Assembly (NCBI RefSeq): GCF_014653785.1
Contig: NZ_BNAS01000001.1
Span: 1,039,898 to 1,103,897 of the forward strand
Direction: 5' to 3'
DNA: 64,000 nucleotides
Source: Promicromonospora soli
Lineage (GTDB): Bacteria > Actinomycetota > Actinomycetes > Actinomycetales > Cellulomonadaceae
Shown: piece after piece, positions 544 to 54,010 of the stretch
Layout of the letters: each line of letters begins with the position of its first letter
Numbering within the stretch: position 1 is the first letter of the stretch
Notes under the pieces: generated by a model
Told to the model about the DNA's origin: nothing
The model's database searches: none
What the model saw: only the letters and a program-made list of their open reading frames with translations
Program-made: the position numbers and the translations under genes

Positions 544-2223
544 CTAGCTGTTGCTCTCGGCGAAGCGCTGGTGGGCGCCGTTGACGAGGTCCAGGTACCC
601 CTGGAGGTTCTGGCCCTCGAGCTCGGCGACGTACGCGTCCCACTCGCTGAGGTCACGCTCGCCGAGGATGAACTTGAGCGTGTTGGTGTTGACGGTGTCC
701 GTGAGCGTCGTCGTCAGGAGCGAGGCCTGCTCGAGCTCCGCCTCGTTCAGCGGCGCGGGCGGGAACGGGTCGCGCGGCGTCCTCGTCGAGAGCACCGAGT
801 CGATGTACTCCACGAACTGGGGCGAGTTGTAGGACTCCTTGAGGGCCCTGGACTCGGTGGAGCCCGCGAGGACCTGCGAAGAGAAGCCCAGGTCCTTCTC
901 GATGTCCGTGGGCGCGTCAGGGTTGATGTTGAACCCGTCGAGCGAGTAGTCGGGCTCGAGGGTGAACTTCCCGTCGTCGGACTTCGTGTACGTCTCGCCC
1001 TCGACGCCCCAGCGCAGCATCTCGCGGGCGTCGGGGCTGTAGTACAGCCAGTCCAGGAACTGCAGCATGGCGATGAAGTGCGGGTCGTCCTTGGCCTCGG
1101 AGTTCACCATGAAGCCGTTCCAGAAGTTGCGCGGCTCGACGACCTGGCCGGCCTCGCCGCCCGGCGGCGCGATCTGGACGACCTCGTGGTTGCCCTTGCC
1201 CTCGGTCTCGTCGAGCGCCGTCGAGAACTCCTGCACCGTGCCGTTCGAGCCGGAGGCGGCGAAGACGTTGCCGGCGGCGAACTTCTCGGTGACCGTCCCG
1301 CTGCCGTCGTTGGTGGCGGTGAAAGACTCGGGGTCGAGCAGCCCGTCCTCCACGAGCCCGTGGAAGTACTCGACCATGTCCCGGTAGCCGTCGGACGTGC
1401 CGGCGTAGACGAACTCGCCGGACTCCTCGTCGAAGAACGTGCCGTCGCCGAAGCCCCAGCCGGCCCTGGTCCCGAAGGCGTGCGAGGCGTAGTTGAGCAT
1501 CGACGCGCCCTCGAAGCCGTCGGCCAGGGGGTAGCTGTCGGGGTACTTCGCCTTGATCTTCTCGAGCCCCACGCGCAGCTCGTCCCAGGTCTCCGGGAGG
1601 GGCGCGCCGACCTCGTCGAACACGTCCTTGCGCACCAGGAGCGTGAAGACCGGGACCGAGACCTCTTGCAGGCCGGGCATCATGTAGTACTTACCGTCCG
1701 CCTGGCGCAGGTTGTCGATCATCGGGCGCAGGTCCCACTCCTCCACGTACTTCTGGAAGTTGGGCATGTACTCCTCGTAGTCGCTGAGCGGCAGCACGGC
1801 GCCCGACGCCGCGAAGCTCTTCTCCTCGCCCGTGTAGACGAGCGGGATGATGTACGGCGCGTCACCGGCGCTGAGGAGGAGGCTGCGCTTCTCCACCGCA
1901 TCGCTGAACGGGATGTTGGTCAGCTCGAGCGAGACGTTCGTCCGCTCCTCGATCTCGTCGAACAGCTGCCAGGAGTCCTTGACCGGGAGCTCCGGCCAGT
2001 CGGTCCAGAGCATGGAGAAGCTCATCGGCTCGGTGGCCTTGAACTGCTCGTCGGCCGCGAAGCTCGCCATGGAGCCGGCGGTCTGGTCGAGGCCGTCGAC
2101 CTCTTCGCCGCCGCCGCTGTCCGGGCTGCACGCCGCCAGGGCGAGCAGAGCCGCCGCGCCCACGACCGCCGTCATGCGCCGGCCTGCGCGACGCCCTCGT
2201 CGGGATGTCACCTCACGAGTCAT
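544..2223 (-). CDS. Extracellular sugar-binding lipoprotein, LplA/LipO type
   Basis: A 559-residue family 1 solute-binding protein that should capture an oligosaccharide outside the membrane and deliver it to the adjacent permease. The start is the second of two close ATGs because GAGGAGAG precedes it directly. A twin-arginine-rich basic head and hydrophobic stretch lead to the lipobox LALAAC (lipidated Cys), then a Gly-rich linker. The length and the motif around SMLWTDWPELPVKDSW match the large LplA-like binding proteins that pair with LplB/YtcP permeases. No ATP-binding subunit lies nearby, so a shared MsiK-type ATPase is likely (inference). Confidence 0.88.
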   Translation of the reverse strand: MTREVTSRRGRRAGRRMTAVVGAAALLALAACSPDSGGGEEVDGLDQTAGSMASFAADEQFKATEPMSFSMLWTDWPELPVKDSWQLFDEIEERTNVSLELTNIPFSDAVEKRSLLLSAGDAPYIIPLVYTGEEKSFAASGAVLPLSDYEEYMPNFQKYVEEWDLRPMIDNLRQADGKYYMMPGLQEVSVPVFTLLVRKDVFDEVGAPLPETWDELRVGLEKIKAKYPDSYPLADGFEGASMLNYASHAFGTRAGWGFGDGTFFDEESGEFVYAGTSDGYRDMVEYFHGLVEDGLLDPESFTATNDGSGTVTEKFAAGNVFAASGSNGTVQEFSTALDETEGKGNHEVVQIAPPGGEAGQVVEPRNFWNGFMVNSEAKDDPHFIAMLQFLDWLYYSPDAREMLRWGVEGETYTKSDDGKFTLEPDYSLDGFNINPDAPTDIEKDLGFSSQVLAGSTESRALKESYNSPQFVEYIDSVLSTRTPRDPFPPAPLNEAELEQASLLTTTLTDTVNTNTLKFILGERDLSEWDAYVAELEGQNLQGYLDLVNGAHQRFAESNS

Positions 2224-2293
2224 GTCTCTCCTCATTGAGAACTGGTCCCGAGCGTCAGTGCTCGGGCGTCACCTACGACGGTTCGTCTTCGAC

Positions 2294-2327
2294 CGAAACC
2301 GTTTTCGACATCGATTTTAGCGTTAAA
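2294..2327. promoter_or_regulatory. Two tandem LacI-type operators
   Basis: Two dyads with a central CG lie between the divergent importer and lacI-type gene: CGAAACCGTTTTCG at 2294-2307 and TTTAGCGTTAAA at 2316-2327. Their centres are 21 bp apart, two helical turns, so two repressor dimers could bind the same face. They most likely serve the adjacent LacI-family repressor. Confidence 0.7.
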
Positions 2328-2384
2328 CTAGGCCAGGGCCGGGCGCTCGTCAACCCCCTCGTCCAGCCCGGGAGGCGGCAGCAG

Positions 2385-3383
2385 ATGGTCACGATGAGCG
2401 ACGTCGCCCGCGAAGCCGGTGTCTCGATGATGACCGTGTCCAACGTGCTCAACGGTCACCGCCGCGTCGTCCCGCCCACGCGGGACCGGGTTCTGACCGC
2501 GATCGAGAAGCTCGGCTACGAGGTCAACCTCACCGCGAGACACCTGCGGTCGGGCCGTACCGACACGGTCGCCCTGATCGTTCCGGGCTTCCACGACTAC
2601 TACGGCGACGTCGCGGACCGGATCGCGCCCCTGGTGGAGGAAGGCGGGCGCCGCCTCGTCCTCGAGCGCACCGGCGCGAGTCCCCGGAGCGAGATCGAGT
2701 CGCTGAGCGTCGCACGCCTGCAGATGTACGACGGCGTGCTCCTCTCGGTGGCCGGGCTGGACCGCGAGCGCCTGGAGAGCGTCAGGACCAAGGCCCCGAT
2801 CGTCCTGCTCGGTGAGCGGGAGGTTCCCCAGCGCTTCGATCACGTCCAGCTCGCGAACGAGGAGGGTGCCCGGCTCGCCACCGCGCACATGCTCGCCCGG
2901 GGCTCGCGCCGGGTTCTCGTGCTCGGAGGCGCACCGGGCGAGACCTCGGGGATGGCCTCGTTGCGACGTGCCGGTTGGGAGACGGCGCACCGCGAGGCAG
3001 GAGTGCCCGCAGACAGCGCGCTCGTCGTTCCGCTGACGACGTACTCGGCACACGAGTCGCGCGAGGTGCTCGGCGGCCTCCTCGATGCGGGCGTGCACGT
3101 CGACGGCATCTTCGCGGTAACCGACACCGTGGCGCTCGGGGCGCTGGCGGCGCTGGCCGACCGTGGGATCGGCGTCCCGGACGACGTCCAGGTCGTGGGG
3201 TTCGACGACCTGGACGTCGGGAAGTACCTGTCCCCCGGCCTCACCACGATCGACCCGAACCACGACGAGGTCGCGCGGAGCGCGGTCCGCCTGCTCGACC
3301 GGCGGATGGCTGGCGGCGACGACCCGCCCGAGCACGTCGTGGTCCCCGTCCGTCTCGTGGTTCGAGGCTCGACGCGGGCCTGA
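2385..3383 (+). CDS. LacI-family transcriptional repressor
   Basis: A 332-residue regulator. The N-terminal helix-turn-helix (MSDVAREAGVSMMTVSNVL) and hinge helix (NLTARHLRSGRT) are followed by a periplasmic-binding-protein-like effector domain ending in DVQVVGFDDLDVGKYLSPGLT. The start ATG 2385 has GGAGG seven bases upstream; the longer reading frame has no homologous N-terminus. It is divergent from the sugar importer and the two LacI dyads lie between them, so it probably represses the importer until the sugar or a derivative binds. It converges with hutI. Confidence 0.9.
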   Translation: MVTMSDVAREAGVSMMTVSNVLNGHRRVVPPTRDRVLTAIEKLGYEVNLTARHLRSGRTDTVALIVPGFHDYYGDVADRIAPLVEEGGRRLVLERTGASPRSEIESLSVARLQMYDGVLLSVAGLDRERLESVRTKAPIVLLGEREVPQRFDHVQLANEEGARLATAHMLARGSRRVLVLGGAPGETSGMASLRRAGWETAHREAGVPADSALVVPLTTYSAHESREVLGGLLDAGVHVDGIFAVTDTVALGALAALADRGIGVPDDVQVVGFDDLDVGKYLSPGLTTIDPNHDEVARSAVRLLDRRMAGGDDPPEHVVVPVRLVVRGSTRA

Positions 3384-3413
3384 GCCGCGCCCCCGTCGGG
3401 CAGGGCGGTCGGC

Positions 3414-4616
3414 TCAGACCCGCGCGCCGTCCTTCCACACCTGCGCCACCAGCGGCACGCCCGGGCGGTAGGCCAGGTAGGTGTGGCTGGGGGCGTCGAG
3501 CACGGTGAGGTCGGCACGGGCGCCGACCCGCAGGTGGCCGACGTCGTCCCGCCGGAGCGCTGCGGCCCCGCCCGCCGTCGCCGACCAGAGGGCCTCGGCC
3601 GGACTCATCCGCATCTCGCGTACCGCGAGCGCCACCACGAACGGCATGGACGAGCTGTAGCCCGAGCCGGGGTTGCAGTCCGTGGCCAGCGCGACCGGCA
3701 CGCCCGCGGCCAGCAGACGTCGCGCGTCGGGGTAGGGCGACCGGGTGGAGAACTCGACGGCGGGAAGCAGCGTCGCGACGGTGCCGAGCCCGGCGCCGGC
3801 CCACGACCCGGCCAGCGCGTCCACGTCGGCGTCGGACAGGTGGGTGCAGTGGTCCACGCTCGCCGCCCCGACCTCGACCGCGAGCCGCACGCCGGGGCCC
3901 GCCGAGAGCTGGTTGCCGTGCACCCGCACGCCGAGCCCGGCCCGGGCACCGGCCGCGAGCACGGTCCGGGCCTCGTCCTCGTCGAAGGCGGTGGGTGCCG
4001 CGGGCTCGCAGAAGACGTCGATCCAGCGGGCGTGCGGCGCGCAGGCGGCGAGCATCGGCCCGGTCACGAGGTCGACGTAACCGGCGCGGTCGCCGGCGTA
4101 CTCCGCCGGGACCGTGTGGGCGCCGAGGAACGTCGTCTCCGGCGTCAGCTCCCGCGCGATCCGCAGCGTGCGGGCCTCGGTGGCGACGTCCTGCCCGTAG
4201 CCGCTCTTGATCTCGACGGTGGTGGTGCCCTGCGCGAGCATCTCGCGCACCAGGGCCTGGCCGCGCGCCCGCAGGGCCTCGTCGGACGCCGCGCGCGTGG
4301 CGGTGACCGTGTTCGCGATGCCGCCCCCGGTGTACGGCTCACCGGTCATGCGGGCGGCGAACTCTGCGGCGCGGTCGCCCGCGAACACGGTGTGCGAGTG
4401 CGAGTCCACGAATCCCGGCAGCGCGCACCGCCCCCCGAGGTCGACCGCGGTGTCGGCCGCGGGCGCCGACGACGCCGGCCCTGTCCAGGCGATCCGGCCG
4501 GCCTCGACGACGATCGCGGCGTCCGGCACGACGCCGAGCCCGCCCGACCCTGACCCGGCGCCGTGCTCCGGGTCGTTCGTGACGAGCTCCCCGATGTTCG
4601 TCAGCAGCACGCTCAT
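3414..4616 (-). CDS. hutI: Imidazolonepropionase
   Basis: Catalyses hydrolysis of 4-imidazolone-5-propanoate to N-formimidoyl-L-glutamate, the third step of histidine breakdown. The 400-residue protein has the amidohydrolase metal motif ([13 protein letters not shown]), the later histidines in [10 protein letters not shown] and DHCTHL, and the aspartate in ATDCNPGS, all in the expected order. It is the last gene of the hut operon; its ATG overlaps the hutF stop (ATGA), implying translational coupling. Confidence 0.96.
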
Positions 4617-47033: not shown

Positions 47034-47251
47034 CGTGCGCCTCCCGTTCGCCAGGAAAGGCGGCCACGGGTGCACGAAACGGCCTGGGTCGTCTGGAGGC
47101 GGTGGTTCAGGCCGCAGCGCGCTCGTCGTGACCCGTCATTTCACTCTAGTGGACGGATCTGCTGAGCTCATGGCGAAGGGCCATCCCTTCCTCCTTGCGA
47201 CGGGATTCCGGGATGGCCCTCTGACCAGCGACTACGGGCGCGCTGTCGGCA
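47034..47251. other. Intergenic region with hairpin repeat copy 1
   Basis: This 218-bp gap holds the 47170-47228 repeat, including a 12-codon mini-reading frame (MALRHELSRSVH, 47184 to 47146) directly behind a strong Shine-Dalgarno sequence in the direction of the sigma-fusion gene. A TAGAGT near 47144-47149 may be a promoter element of the phosphoribosyltransferase fusion. Confidence 0.45.
47170..47228 (-). repeat. SD-bearing hairpin repeat, copy 1
   Basis: A 59-nt sequence nearly identical to 49402-49459. Arms 47177-47187 and 47210-47220 pair perfectly (11 bp). Read on the minus strand the loop carries AAGGAGGAAGG and the 3' arm begins with ATG, so the ribosome site lies in the loop of a hairpin. 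Confidence 0.8.
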
Positions 47252-49348
47252 TCACCACGACGTCCGTGCGTACACCACCGTCTGTCGCAGGTCGCCGTAG
47301 CTCCAGCGGTCCTGATTCTGGAGGCGTTCCAGCTCGGCGCTGGCGTGCTCGGTCCAGACGACACGGTTCGCAGCGCCGGCGACGTCCAGCCACGCGGTCC
47401 CGTCCTCGTCCGGCCCGGGCCCGAGCGTGGTCAGGGCGGGCACGGCGACTCCGTCCCGTGGTTCCAGCCGCAGGAAGTAGATGCTCTCGCCGTCGGCCCA
47501 GAGGATGCCGTCGTCGAACGCGCTGACCGGCCACGAGGCATCCTGACGGACGACTGTGGCGTCGCGCGAGTCCGTGTCGAGCGCCACGATCCACCCGCCC
47601 GACTCGAACAACAGCGTGTCTCCGTTCAGGTACGCGTAGTGGTTCCACGCCGTGCTCTGGTCGAGCCGCACGAGGTCGCGCAGGCCGGAGCCTGCCGAGA
47701 GCAGTCCGATCGTGCTGGGACCCTCAGCAGGATTGCGTGACACGACGACACCGTCGTCACTGTCGGAGATGGCGCAGACGTCCGTGACCACGTCGCGGAC
47801 GATGTCGGTGTCGGGTGCGCCCAGGTCGACCAGGTCGATGCGCCCCGCGCACCGGTCCGGGTCGGCGAGATTCCCGTCCGTGAGGTGCAAGATCGCCAGG
47901 GTTCGCCCTCCCGCTGCGATCTTCCAGACATGCCGAGCGGGATCCGGCTGGTAGCTCGTGATGGTACGGACCTCGCCGTCCGGTCCTTGCGCCTTGACCA
48001 CGACCGGCTCGCTCTCGGAGAACCCCTCGGTCCAGGCGACGTGCGTGTCGGTGAGGACCGGGCTGCTGACGGCGTAGCTGCGATGCTCGCTGTCGGAGTC
48101 GGGCGAGGCAGCTGAGAGCTGCCAGTGCTCCAGTGCGGACTCGCCGGCCGGCCCGGTGGCTGTGGGCCGCGCCAGTGCGGTGATCGGTTCGGAGCCGGGT
48201 CCGACGTCGGGTCGGGCCGCTGCGGCGATCAGCGTCCCGTCGCGACGGACCGTGAACGGAACGTTGGGGTCGGACCCGATCCCGGACCCGACCATGACTT
48301 CCGGAGGGCTGCCAAGGCTCACCCTGTGCTCGGGGATGTAGTCGACGCACTCGACCGCCGGGCGAGCGTCTCCGGCGTCGAGTGCCTGGACGATGGTGTA
48401 GTCCCCGGTCGGGGCGTCCGCGGGGACCGGGATGGTCCTGGTCGCGTCCGGCGTCGGGAGATCGTTCCCAGCGCATGGGGCGGCGAGGGCCGCCATCTCG
48501 GGGATGTCGAGGTCGCCCAGCCCGACGGCGTCGTCCTGCCTGGTCACCGCATCCTCGTCCCGGACCGGGCCGTCATCACGACTGGTGTCGACCGAGGGCA
48601 GGTGGAAGGTCTCCACCAGCCAGCGGTGTGCCGGACCTGTGGTCGTGTCCAGCACCGGTACACCGACCGGACCATGCACGATCAGGGCGATGAACGCGCT
48701 CACCGCGACTGCGGTGACGCTGAGCGCAGCGCTGCGGCGGACCTGACGTGCCGCCGCGGCCTTGCTGCGGGTCAACGTCTCGCGACCGTCGAAGACCGGG
48801 TCGTCCGTGGTCTCCGGGGCAGCGCCGGTCAGGAGCGAGCGAAGCCGCTCGAGACCCCGGGAGCTCGCGGCCTTGACGGTGCCGACCGATCGCCCGATCT
48901 CACGGGCAACCTGTGCCTCCGGCAGATCAAGGACGTGCCGCAGCACCACGACCCGTCGCTGCTGCGGCGAGAGACTCCCCAGCGCCCGGGCGAGCTCGTC
49001 CCGGAGCGCGATCTGTGCGGCGTGATCGTCCGCGTGAGCGACCGGAACGTTGTCGTCACCCGGGACATCCGTCAACCGCGTCCGACGCCACGCATCAGTC
49101 CTGAGATTGACCAGCACCTTCCGCGCGTACGCGCGAGGTGCCCCGGCGGCCCGAGCTGTGTCCCAGCGTCGGTAGACGCGCTCGAAGGTGCTCTGGACCA
49201 GGTCCTCGGCCAGGGCACGCTCGCCGACCAGCAAGAACGCCGTCCGAAACAGGTACGGACCGTCCGCCTCAACGAACGCGACGAACTCCTCGTCCCGCGA
49301 CCGGCCGCCCACGCGGACCTCGACCCGTTTCCCCGAAAGTGTCTCCAT
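47252..49348 (-). CDS. SigE-type ECF sigma factor fused to a membrane segment and outer beta-rich domain
   Basis: A 698-residue single reading frame. Residues 15-175 are an ECF sigma factor (EEFVAFVEADGPYLFRTAFL region 2; LGSLSPQQRRVVVLRHVLDL and IGRSVGTVKAASSRGLERLR region 4). A helix at 207-225 (ALSVTAVAVSAFIALIVHG) should cross the membrane. The remaining ~470 residues look extracytoplasmic and beta-propeller-like (HVWKIAAGGRTLAILHLTDG, SYAVSSPVLTDTHVAWTEGF). Normally such sigma factors and membrane sensors are separate genes. The start METL is preceded closely by GTAGGAG; GTG 49360 is an alternative. Flanked by two copies of a hairpin repeat. Confidence 0.85.
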   Translation of the reverse strand: METLSGKRVEVRVGGRSRDEEFVAFVEADGPYLFRTAFLLVGERALAEDLVQSTFERVYRRWDTARAAGAPRAYARKVLVNLRTDAWRRTRLTDVPGDDNVPVAHADDHAAQIALRDELARALGSLSPQQRRVVVLRHVLDLPEAQVAREIGRSVGTVKAASSRGLERLRSLLTGAAPETTDDPVFDGRETLTRSKAAAARQVRRSAALSVTAVAVSAFIALIVHGPVGVPVLDTTTGPAHRWLVETFHLPSVDTSRDDGPVRDEDAVTRQDDAVGLGDLDIPEMAALAAPCAGNDLPTPDATRTIPVPADAPTGDYTIVQALDAGDARPAVECVDYIPEHRVSLGSPPEVMVGSGIGSDPNVPFTVRRDGTLIAAAARPDVGPGSEPITALARPTATGPAGESALEHWQLSAASPDSDSEHRSYAVSSPVLTDTHVAWTEGFSESEPVVVKAQGPDGEVRTITSYQPDPARHVWKIAAGGRTLAILHLTDGNLADPDRCAGRIDLVDLGAPDTDIVRDVVTDVCAISDSDDGVVVSRNPAEGPSTIGLLSAGSGLRDLVRLDQSTAWNHYAYLNGDTLLFESGGWIVALDTDSRDATVVRQDASWPVSAFDDGILWADGESIYFLRLEPRDGVAVPALTTLGPGPDEDGTAWLDVAGAANRVVWTEHASAELERLQNQDRWSYGDLRQTVVYARTSW

Positions 49349-49401
49349 GCTCCTACCCACGCGCCGAGACCGTCGAAGGTTGAGGCCGTATCCGGGATCC
49401 T

Positions 49402-49459
49402 ATGGCGAGAGGCCATCCCTTCCTCCTTGTAACAGGATTCCGGAATGGCCTCTGACCAG
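49402..49459 (-). repeat. SD-bearing hairpin repeat, copy 2
   Basis: A 58-nt second copy, between tRNA-Ala and the sigma-fusion gene. Arms 49408-49419 and 49442-49453 pair with one mismatch. Changes relative to copy 1 in both arms keep the stem paired (AGGGCC/GGCCCT against AGAGGCC/GGCCTCT). The loop again carries AAGGAGGAAGG followed by ATG. Confidence 0.8.
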
Positions 49460-50339: not shown

Positions 50340-50521
50340 CGGACCTCGGGAGTGCCAGACGGTGATCGTCACCACAGTTCCGGGGCGGCCGCCCCCACCC
50401 GCGCCCGCGCTTCCAAGTCCGGACTGATTCCGCAGGTCAAGCAACCCATCGCCGGGTCCCGCGCGTCTGGTTGACGTGGCGTCGCACAGGCGGCGCGCTC
50501 GACCCGGACGGGAGAAACCCG

Positions 50522-53500
50522 ATGCGTAAGAGAGCAAGTGCAGCAGCGGTCGCGATGGCGATCGCACTGGGCGGGGGGACGTGGGCGACCGCGGCCGTCC
50601 CGCAGGACACACCGGCACCGCATCACGAGCAGGAGCCTTCGACTGCCGCGGCGCAGGGTCGTCCCGCGGCCGTCACACTGCTGACCGGCGACGAAGTCAC
50701 GGTGCGGACCGCGCCCGACGGCTCGGTCACGGCGACAGTGCGGCCCGGCGCGGGTCGCGAACACATGGCCTTCTTCCAGCAGCGTGAGGGAGAGCATCTC
50801 TACGTCATCCCGCGCGACGTCGCGCAGCTCGTGCCCAGTCGCCTGGACCGCGCGCTCTTCGACGTGACAGGCCTCATCAAGGCCGGGTACGACGACGCCT
50901 CGCGCGACTCGCTGCCGGTCATTGTCCAGACGGCCGAGGCCACCGAGGCAGCCGCGGCGGCCGCGACCGACCCGGATACGGCCGGTTCCCCGGACGACAG
51001 CGCCCGAACCAAGGCACAGGGCAAGCCGAGCTGGGCGGCGTCGGGCATCACGCCCGACCGGAAGCTGGAATCGGTGGGCGCGGTGGCCGACGTCCTGCCG
51101 AAGGGACGGGCAGCGAAGCTGCTCGACGCCCTCGCACCGGCCGAGGCACCGGGCGGCGCCTCGACCAAGCGGACCGCACCCGGCAGCATCGGCCACGTCT
51201 GGCTGGACCAGCCCGTCCGGGCCTCCGACGCCGATTCGACACCGCAGATCGGCGCCCCCGAAGCATGGCAGGCCGGGTTCACGGGCGAGGGTGTCACCGT
51301 CGCCGTGCTCGACTCCGGCATCGACGCGACGCACCCCGACCTCGACGAGGCGGTGGTCGGCGAGCGCGACTTCACCGGCAAGGGCAACGTGGTCGACGGC
51401 GATGGCCACGGCACGCACGTCGCCTCGATCGTGGCCGGTTCGGGCGACGCGTCCGACGGCGTGAACCGCGGCGTGGCTCCCGACGCCGACCTGCTGGTCG
51501 GCAAGGTGCTCGACGACGACGGCTTCGGCGAGCTGTCGGGCGTCATCGAGGGCATGGAGTGGGCGGCCGCCGAGGGTGCCGACGTCGTGAACCTGTCGCT
51601 GGGCAGCCTGTTCTTCGACGTCCCGTCCCCGGACGCCGTCGCGGTGGACGAGCTGACCGAGCAGTACGGCACGCTGTTCGTCATCTCCGCGGGCAACTAC
51701 GGGGAGCTCGGCCAGGGCAGCGTGGGCTCGCCCGGCATCGCGGCGAAGGCCCTCACGGTGGGCGCCGTCGACGACGCCGACGACGTCACGGTCTACTCCA
51801 GCCGCGGCGGCTCCGACGCGGGGCTGCTCAAGCCGGACGTCGTCGCCCCGGGTGACGGGATCGTCGCCGCACGGGCCGCGGGCACAACCGCGGGCGACGT
51901 CGTCGACGACCTGCACGTCGCGCTGAGCGGCACCTCCATGGCCGCCCCGCACGTGGCGGGCGCCGCGGCAGTGCTCAAGCAGGCCCGGCCGGACCTCGAC
52001 ACGACGGCGCTCAAGTCCGCGCTGATGGGCTCGGCCGAGCCGACGGGCGCGGACGTCTGGGCCGAGGGTGCGGGGCGGATCACCGTCCCTGGCGCCATCG
52101 CGCAGCAGGTCACGGCCACGCCGTCGGTCTCGTTCGGCACCTTCGCCTGGCCGCACGACGGCGAGTCGGCCACCCGCACCGTGACCTACACCAACGCGGG
52201 GTCCGACGACGTCACGCTCGCCCTGGCGGCCGGCGTCGCGGACTCGGCGGGCACCGACGTGGCTGCCGCGCTCAGCCTGTCGGCGGACTCCGTCGTCGTG
52301 CCGGCGGGCGGTGCCGCGACGGTCGACCTGACCGCGGCCGACGGCCCGGGCGCGATCGGCGCCATCGGCGGGACGCTCGTCGCGACCGGGACGGACGGCA
52401 CCAAGGTGCGCACGCCGGTCGGCTGGGCCAAGGAGCGCGAGTACGTGAACCTCACGGTGCGCGCCGTCGACCGGGCGGGGGAGCCTGTCACCGCCGACAC
52501 CTGGGGTGCCGCGATCAAGCTGGATCCCGAGAACGGCGGCATCTTCGGCACCAACCTCTTTTTCGAGGACGGCGTCGCCACGGCGCGCGTCATCCCGGGC
52601 GTATACAGCCCGGTGGCGTTTATCGAGACGCTGGGCGAGGACGGCGCAGTGACCGACGCGCTGTTCCTGTCGAGCGGTGAGGTCGACGCCACCGCCGACG
52701 CGGAGGTCCTCCTGGATGGCACGACGGCGCGGGAGGTCACCACCTCCACGCACCGTCCGGCCGAGCTGGCGAGCCTGGGTCTGTCCGTGGAGACCGAGGA
52801 CTCTGCGGAGTTCGCCTCCGCGGGGGTCAACGTGATGTACGGGCCGGGGACGGACCTCGCCCTGACCCCGGTGCCTGCGGCGACGCACGGCGACTACGAC
52901 ACCATCATCCAGGCGACGCTGCTGGCGCCCACCTCGGGCGACGACAGGGGTGACGCAGCCGCGCCCTACCGCTACGACCTCGCCCACCACAGCGAGGGCC
53001 TGGAGGTCCCGGCGCTGCGGGGCGACCGCCGCACGACCGTCGCCGTCGACACCACCTACGGCGCGTCGGTCGGTGACACCCACCTCGCGCGGCGCCTGTA
53101 CTGGGAGCCGGGCACCATCATCGCCGGCGGAGCCATCGAGCCGGTTCCCGTCGGAACGCGGCGCACCGAGTACCTGACGGCCCTGCCGGGCAGGTGGTAC
53201 CTCGGGTCCGAGATCCAGGAGGACGGCGTGGGCGTGGTGCTCACCGAGGCCGAGCGACACGTCTGGAGCGAGCCGGGCCGCGCCCGGCAGGGGCTCGCAG
53301 CGGGTGCGCTGGCACCGGCCGTCTCGTCGATCACGCCGGTCACGCAGTGGGGCGGCGACCTCTCGCTCGCCCCGACGAGCCGCGCCGACGACGACGGCGG
53401 CGTGCTGTGGGGCTCGGACGTCGGGGAGCGGCTGCGCGTCTGGCAGGACGGCGAGCTGATCGAGGACGTTCCGGAGCCTTACTCCTTCCCCACCGTGCCC

Positions 53501-53950
53501 GAGGGCGGGGCCGACTACCGGATGCTGCTGGAGAGCACGCCCGGCGATCCCGCGTACCGGCTCGCCACCAACGTGACCGGCGAGTGGACGTTCCACGCGC
53601 GGTCCGACGTCGGCGACGACGCCGTGCCGCCGCTGCTCGACACCACGTGGGACGTGCGCGGGCTCGACCCCTCGGGCACCGCGCCCGCGACCACCCGGGT
53701 GCGGGTCGGCGTGAGCCACCAGGACGGCGCGTACGACACGTCGCTGGTGGAGGGCGCCCGCCTGTGGTGGTCGTCCGACGACGGCGGCACCTGGCACCGG
53801 GCCACGGTGACGAGGACCGATGACGGCGGCTACGTCGCGACGGTCAGGGCGCCGGCCGGCACCGAGCACGTCTCGCTCAAGGTCGAGGCGTGGGACGAGG
53901 CCGGTGGGTCGGTGACCAAGACGGTCGTCCGGGCGTACGCCGTCGGCTGA
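50522..53950 (+). CDS. Secreted subtilisin-like serine peptidase (S8)
   Basis: An 1142-residue exported protease. A Sec signal peptide ([20 protein letters not shown]) is followed by a propeptide, then the S8 catalytic domain with Asp264 ([15 protein letters not shown]), His296 ([14 protein letters not shown]) and Ser472 ([13 protein letters not shown]). The C-terminal 600 residues are beta-rich and probably accessory. GGGAGAAA precedes ATG 50522. Flanked by the two tRNA-Ala genes and ended by a strong terminator. Confidence 0.95.
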
Positions 53951-53966
53951 TCGAGCCCGTCAACGT

Positions 53967-54002: not shown

Positions 54003-54010
54003 TATTTCGG

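Follow-up and report, generated by a model that had tools for sequence, protein, structure and literature searches.

A conserved single-gene fusion of a SigE-family ECF sigma factor, a membrane helix and a probable propeller-like outer domain in Promicromonospora

A single minus-strand reading frame at positions 47252-49348 of the analyzed window (64,000 nt of contig NZ_BNAS01000001.1 from Promicromonospora soli; all unlabeled coordinates are those of the window) places a sigma factor, a membrane helix and a large outer domain in one protein. This raises the question of whether such a gene is real and, if so, whether it represents a signaling design distinct from sigma/anti-sigma pairs, as the original prediction held. 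The frame comprises 698 codons uninterrupted by a stop and its orthologues are likewise unsplit, in keeping with the predicted joining of the three parts. The sigma part (residues 17-174; 48827-49300, minus strand, as for all parts of the gene) was assigned to the SigE family of ECF sigma factors based on its match to TIGR02983 (E 2.6e-48; 164 bits against a cut-off of 141.55), which agrees with the full SigE-type factor first proposed at residues 15-175. It is followed by a juxtamembrane segment of 31 residues (175-205; 48734-48826), basic just ahead of a single membrane helix at residues 206-224 (48677-48733; Kyte-Doolittle window 2.31), where a membrane segment had been expected at 207-225. 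Segment and helix together are homologous to the beginning of the partner protein of a split pair in two genomes of the genus (G002 and G003; A2 profile). Six of the 20 residues that lead into the helix are lysine or arginine, compared to one of the 20 that follow it, suggesting an orientation with the N-terminus inside the cell.

Beyond the helix, an acidic, weakly constrained stalk (residues 225-291; 48476-48676) leads into an ectodomain of ∼410 residues (292-698; 47255-48475). All cysteines lie in the ectodomain, with none in residues 1-291, and four of them (292, 334, 500 and 525) are invariant in an alignment of 11 sequences, which includes two paralogues sharing just 36 and 33% identity with the P. 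soli protein. No Pfam family matched residues 179-698 at E 0.1. The full-length structure model was poor (pLDDT 44.1); a low-confidence model of the ectodomain resembles beta-propellers (i.e. circular arrays of four-stranded blades), and the outer domain is likely propeller-like; the original prediction had described ∼470 residues of such sequence.

Intact single-frame orthologues were identified in eight of the 12 other Promicromonospora genomes searched and in Myceligenerans pegani, resulting in nine outside the source genome and supporting the conservation of the fusion. The remaining four genomes held a copy with one in-frame TAG (G010), remnants of the gene only (G011 and G012), or no copy (G002). 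A profile of the C-terminal half, with seven candidates scored per genome, matched 14 of 200 genomes of the family, namely 13 of the genus (the source genome included) and M. pegani, although several of these matches covered only the helix region of a paralogue. Among 394 genomes of the class, with three candidates scored per genome, the only match was the source genome itself. The relatives carrying a genus name came from Promicromonospora (seven loci) and Myceligenerans (one). In seven comparisons with the source gene, dN/dS ranged from 0.12 to 0.19 for the sigma part, from 0.32 to 0.48 for the ectodomain and from 0.36 to 1.11 for stalk residues 226-291, values which point to purifying selection on both halves. 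The intact orthologues, together with this selection, rule out a sequencing error or a chance frame. We also consider it very improbable that the gene is decaying, that a lost stop codon artificially joined two genes, or that an internal start additionally allows the halves to be made as separate proteins: such a history would fit the three of the 12 other genomes that have remnants or an in-frame stop and the fourth that has no copy, yet these are outweighed by the nine intact orthologues, purifying selection across the whole frame and the existence of additional groups of fused paralogues. The fusion is thus real and conserved, and adds a new form to the ECF sigma factors tethered to the membrane.

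The claim that this design stands apart from sigma/anti-sigma pairs was not supported when related genes were compared. Six sigma factors of the source genome scored above the SigE-family cut-off, of which two are fused (the gene under study and L063), while each of the other four is followed by a membrane-partner gene whose start codon overlaps the sigma stop codon, preceding it by one base; the helix of one of these partners (L064) fell below the threshold used. Across 100 Actinomycetota genomes, 79 SigE-family matches were listed, 73 of them outside the source genome, and partners were surveyed at 28 of the 73, some of which are near-copies of each other. At 21 of the 28 loci a membrane-protein gene follows, starting between −17 and +7 nt relative to the sigma stop (at −1 in 11 cases); three ran off the contig (L116, L127 and L130), three were without such a partner (L111, L117 and L137), and one, with a tail of 138 aa, was left out of the test (L123). 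The first helix of the 21 split partners lies between residues 36 and 82, with one helix in the part seen for 19 of them, two for L136 and five for L135, and the stretch preceding it is 35–63 aa long in all 21, versus 31 aa in the fusion. Three of the other listed matches (G630:C332, G614:C82 and G630:C178), with open frames of 411–587 aa, could be further fusions. A split near residues 180-200 had been named as evidence against the fusion; it is found in most of the distant relatives surveyed, but not in the orthologues or in the fused paralogues of the genus.

The link between the two forms comes from within the genus itself. Two genomes (G002 and G003) carry a paralogous pair (L045 and L046) that is split, with an ATGA stop/start overlap, and whose partner matches the pre-membrane and helix region of the fusion (A2 profile, E 4.3e-12 and 1.0e-11). 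This homology across the junction identifies the fused gene, on sequence grounds, as a sigma/membrane-partner pair that has been joined, lacking a zinc-finger anti-sigma domain. For the ectodomain, no convincing sequence similarity to 23 split partners was obtained (best full-sequence E 0.0057); the weak matches were rejected as homology, the five alignments displayed being largely confined to the pre-membrane and helix region. The two kinds of fusion, that of the main group and that of a separate, distant cluster in the source genome (L110), do not group together in a tree built from 68 sigma domains, which requires three changes between fused and split labels, two of them forced by well-supported branches; most simply, this would represent two separate fusions. 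The L045/L046 split pair sits among the fused paralogues of the main group, for which a single fused clade was not rejected (p-AU 0.367), so that the pair is either ancestral or re-split. The distant cluster in the source genome (L110; G000:C2:255000-270000) comprises five SigE-like sigma genes in tandem, of which three have a membrane partner encoded separately and two form a fusion with it.

By analogy, the protein may function most like IutY of Pseudomonas putida, an ECF243 sigma/anti-sigma hybrid of the type defined by a FecR-like domain, or like a joined RpoE1 and TolB of Thermoanaerobacter tengcongensis, a bacterium of a different phylum from Promicromonospora. In both the fusion and IutY, a single polypeptide combines a sigma factor, one helix and an extracytoplasmic domain, the outside location being predicted in our case; they differ in that the fusion belongs to an actinobacterium and has a propeller-like domain, with the FecR-like family among those absent from the Pfam search above. 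IutY is described as a cytosolic ECF sigma factor, one membrane helix and a periplasmic domain in a single chain, which belongs to a cell-surface signaling system with an outer-membrane receptor and is activated by regulated intramembrane proteolysis via Prc and RseP (PMC5411451). In the account of Tt-RpoE1 and Tt-TolB, the genes are separated by 2 bp, TolB has a helix at residues 39-61, its residues 1-39 bind the sigma factor, TolB inhibits transcription, and Tt-RpoE1 transcribes its own gene (PMC3397946). Judged by description, this pair resembles the fusion in combining an ECF sigma factor with a partner in which a short N-terminal tail and a single helix precede a C-terminal part of the TolB type, but it is encoded by two genes rather than one.

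Among Actinobacteria, the closest comparison is with ECF52 (SCO4117), ECF48 and ECF53, which likewise encode, in a single gene, a C-terminal extension with a membrane helix and for which proteolytic release is expected (PMC8999054, PMC5826349). The one helix of the fusion falls within the one or two helices of these groups. They are placed in a proteolysis class with zinc-finger domains (PMC8999054), and ECF52 has in addition a proline-rich region and a carbohydrate-binding domain, none of which was found in the fusion. A zinc-finger fusion of the ECF52 kind was ruled out, as no cysteine precedes residue 292 and a whole-protein Pfam scan up to E 1 yielded no zinc-finger family; a C-terminal carbohydrate-binding domain gave no Pfam match at E 0.1, and the model resembles propellers. 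WD40-like repeats are reported in the C-terminal extension of some members of ECF57 (example Singulisphaera acidiphila), together with a conserved pair of cysteines that might connect sigma2 to sigma4 (PMC8999054); this cysteine pair is absent from the cysteine-free N-terminal part of the fusion.

We therefore favor, with a probability of roughly 0.6, a one-protein transmembrane receptor in which a SigE-family ECF sigma factor is joined to the membrane partner that is usually the product of the adjacent gene. Held on the cytoplasmic side of the membrane, the sigma domain would be kept inactive by the juxtamembrane segment and the tether, and the propeller-like ectodomain would sense a ligand or the state of the envelope from outside. 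Upon a signal, the stalk would be cut outside and the helix cut within the membrane by a site-2 protease, and the freed sigma domain would bind RNA polymerase and activate its own promoter. The resulting mRNA would be near-leaderless, and the loop would provide positive feedback. We consider proteolytic release likely; the source genome encodes a site-2 protease (PF02163), but so do all 14 control genomes, and it does not provide specific support. Points that speak against this reading are the pre-membrane stretch, which is shorter than in any of the 21 split partners and contains no recognized anti-sigma domain, the low confidence of the structure models, and the rarity of the promoter motif described below among split genes. 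Alternatively, the sigma factor could act while bound, with binding by the ectodomain altering the juxtamembrane segment and RNA polymerase being recruited at the membrane without proteolysis. This would be in line with the lack of an identifiable protease site in the protein and of a recognized anti-sigma domain in the pre-membrane stretch, and with the conformational change by which the extensions of ECF41 and ECF238 are described to act (PMC8999054). We regard it as rather unlikely, since IutY, the closest studied architecture, requires Prc and RseP (PMC5411451), and the ECF41 and ECF238 extensions are presented as domains contacting the sigma part rather than as a membrane helix with an ectodomain (PMC8999054).

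The feedback step of the proposed receptor relates to a promoter arrangement conserved upstream of the gene. A predicted ECF promoter (49359-49381, minus strand) consists of a −35 element AACCT (49377-49381), a 15-nt spacer and a −10 element CGT (49359-49361), 10 nt before the ATG, and the DNA common to the orthologue loci starts about 40–60 bases upstream of this ATG. ECF promoters carry AAC at −35 and CGT at −10. Searches with the pattern AACCT-N(14-16)-CGT-N(5-14)-ATG, with expectations obtained from mononucleotide shuffles, gave matches before 24 of 26 fused sigma genes (0.01 expected; L044 and L047 lack it) and seven of 34 split SigE-family genes (0.005 expected). All 24 positive fused genes have exactly AACCT-N15-CGT-N10-ATG; as the 26 (the gene under study and its orthologues, 11 in total, and 15 paralogues) are related, these are not independent events. 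In the source genome the strict pattern has one match, the gene's own promoter. Given the resemblance to ECF promoters, the gene probably regulates itself, and its mRNA probably begins at the ATG or immediately upstream of it. The same promoter conservation could also be taken to mean that the tether merely lowers background while control is mainly transcriptional and self-amplifying once another factor switches the gene on. This is distinctly unlikely, as purifying selection extends over ∼400 ectodomain residues that a bare tether would not need.

While the gene is conserved, its location is not. Its position differs between nearly all the genomes compared: among the 55 pairs of 11 loci, flanks of up to 3 kb were alike in two (L058 with L104, and the source locus with L059), and extending the flanks revealed common sequence in a few additional pairs, at other distances. 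The block with tRNA-Ala and SOD and the block starting at 54006 are found on the same contig, separated by no more than about 4 kb, in all 12 other genomes, the second block being cut by a contig end in three (G001, G004 and G007). The sigma gene lies between these two blocks in G001, while in G005 both genes that flank the source sigma gene occur but enclose other DNA. Comparison of 47157-49408 with L092 of G005 (897-4176) indicated that the site between the phosphoribosyltransferase and tRNA-Ala genes is a variable spot that holds different DNA by species. The gene at 50421-53955, which we take from its sequence to be an S8-type protease, is located elsewhere in eight of the 12 other genomes while its neighbors keep their order; relocation is thus not peculiar to the sigma gene and may be common among the accessory genes of this genus.

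A mobile element was considered as the carrier, but neither a transposase nor terminal repeats could be established. The gene is flanked by a 49-bp direct repeat (88% identity between copies), with one copy between the gene and tRNA-Ala, just downstream of the latter (49402-49450), and the other past the 3' end of the gene (47170-47218); the repeat contains an inner inverted repeat and has only these two strong copies genome-wide. A paralogue present in G008 is missing between the same two neighbors in G007. Promicromonospora may harbor sigma-receptor units that are complete in themselves, needing no partner gene because ∼2.1 kb accommodates the promoter, the sigma factor and the sensor, and that are copied, moved around the chromosome and lost singly, an idea we find doubtful; if true, signaling systems would spread inside genomes as one-gene modules. 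As further observations on incomplete copies, the remnant in G011 (L108, 6199-6652) has a large internal deletion and lies beside tRNA-Ala and SOD in a neighborhood resembling that of P. citrea, and in G007 the C-terminal part is partially duplicated (L019; G007:C9:87364-87465) next to the intact gene.

No report naming this fusion in Promicromonospora was found in the open-license literature searched, nor anything specific on actinobacterial SigE-family pairs with varied outer domains. The genus offers a natural series from separate, overlapping genes for a sigma factor and its membrane partner to a single fused receptor, so that the control of the sigma factor by the short pre-membrane segment can be tested by comparing the forms. 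Our data also suggest that SigE-family pairs of Actinobacteria form a wide group with very varied outer domains: the partners at L126 (1992-3095) and L133 (1986-3005) contain GerMN and Gmad2 domains, and that of L120 a DUF6923 domain. Lastly, the same 64-kb window contains a further ECF sigma gene (L066; 27699-28175, plus strand), followed by a gene of 271 aa that overlaps its stop and has a helix at residues 119-137.
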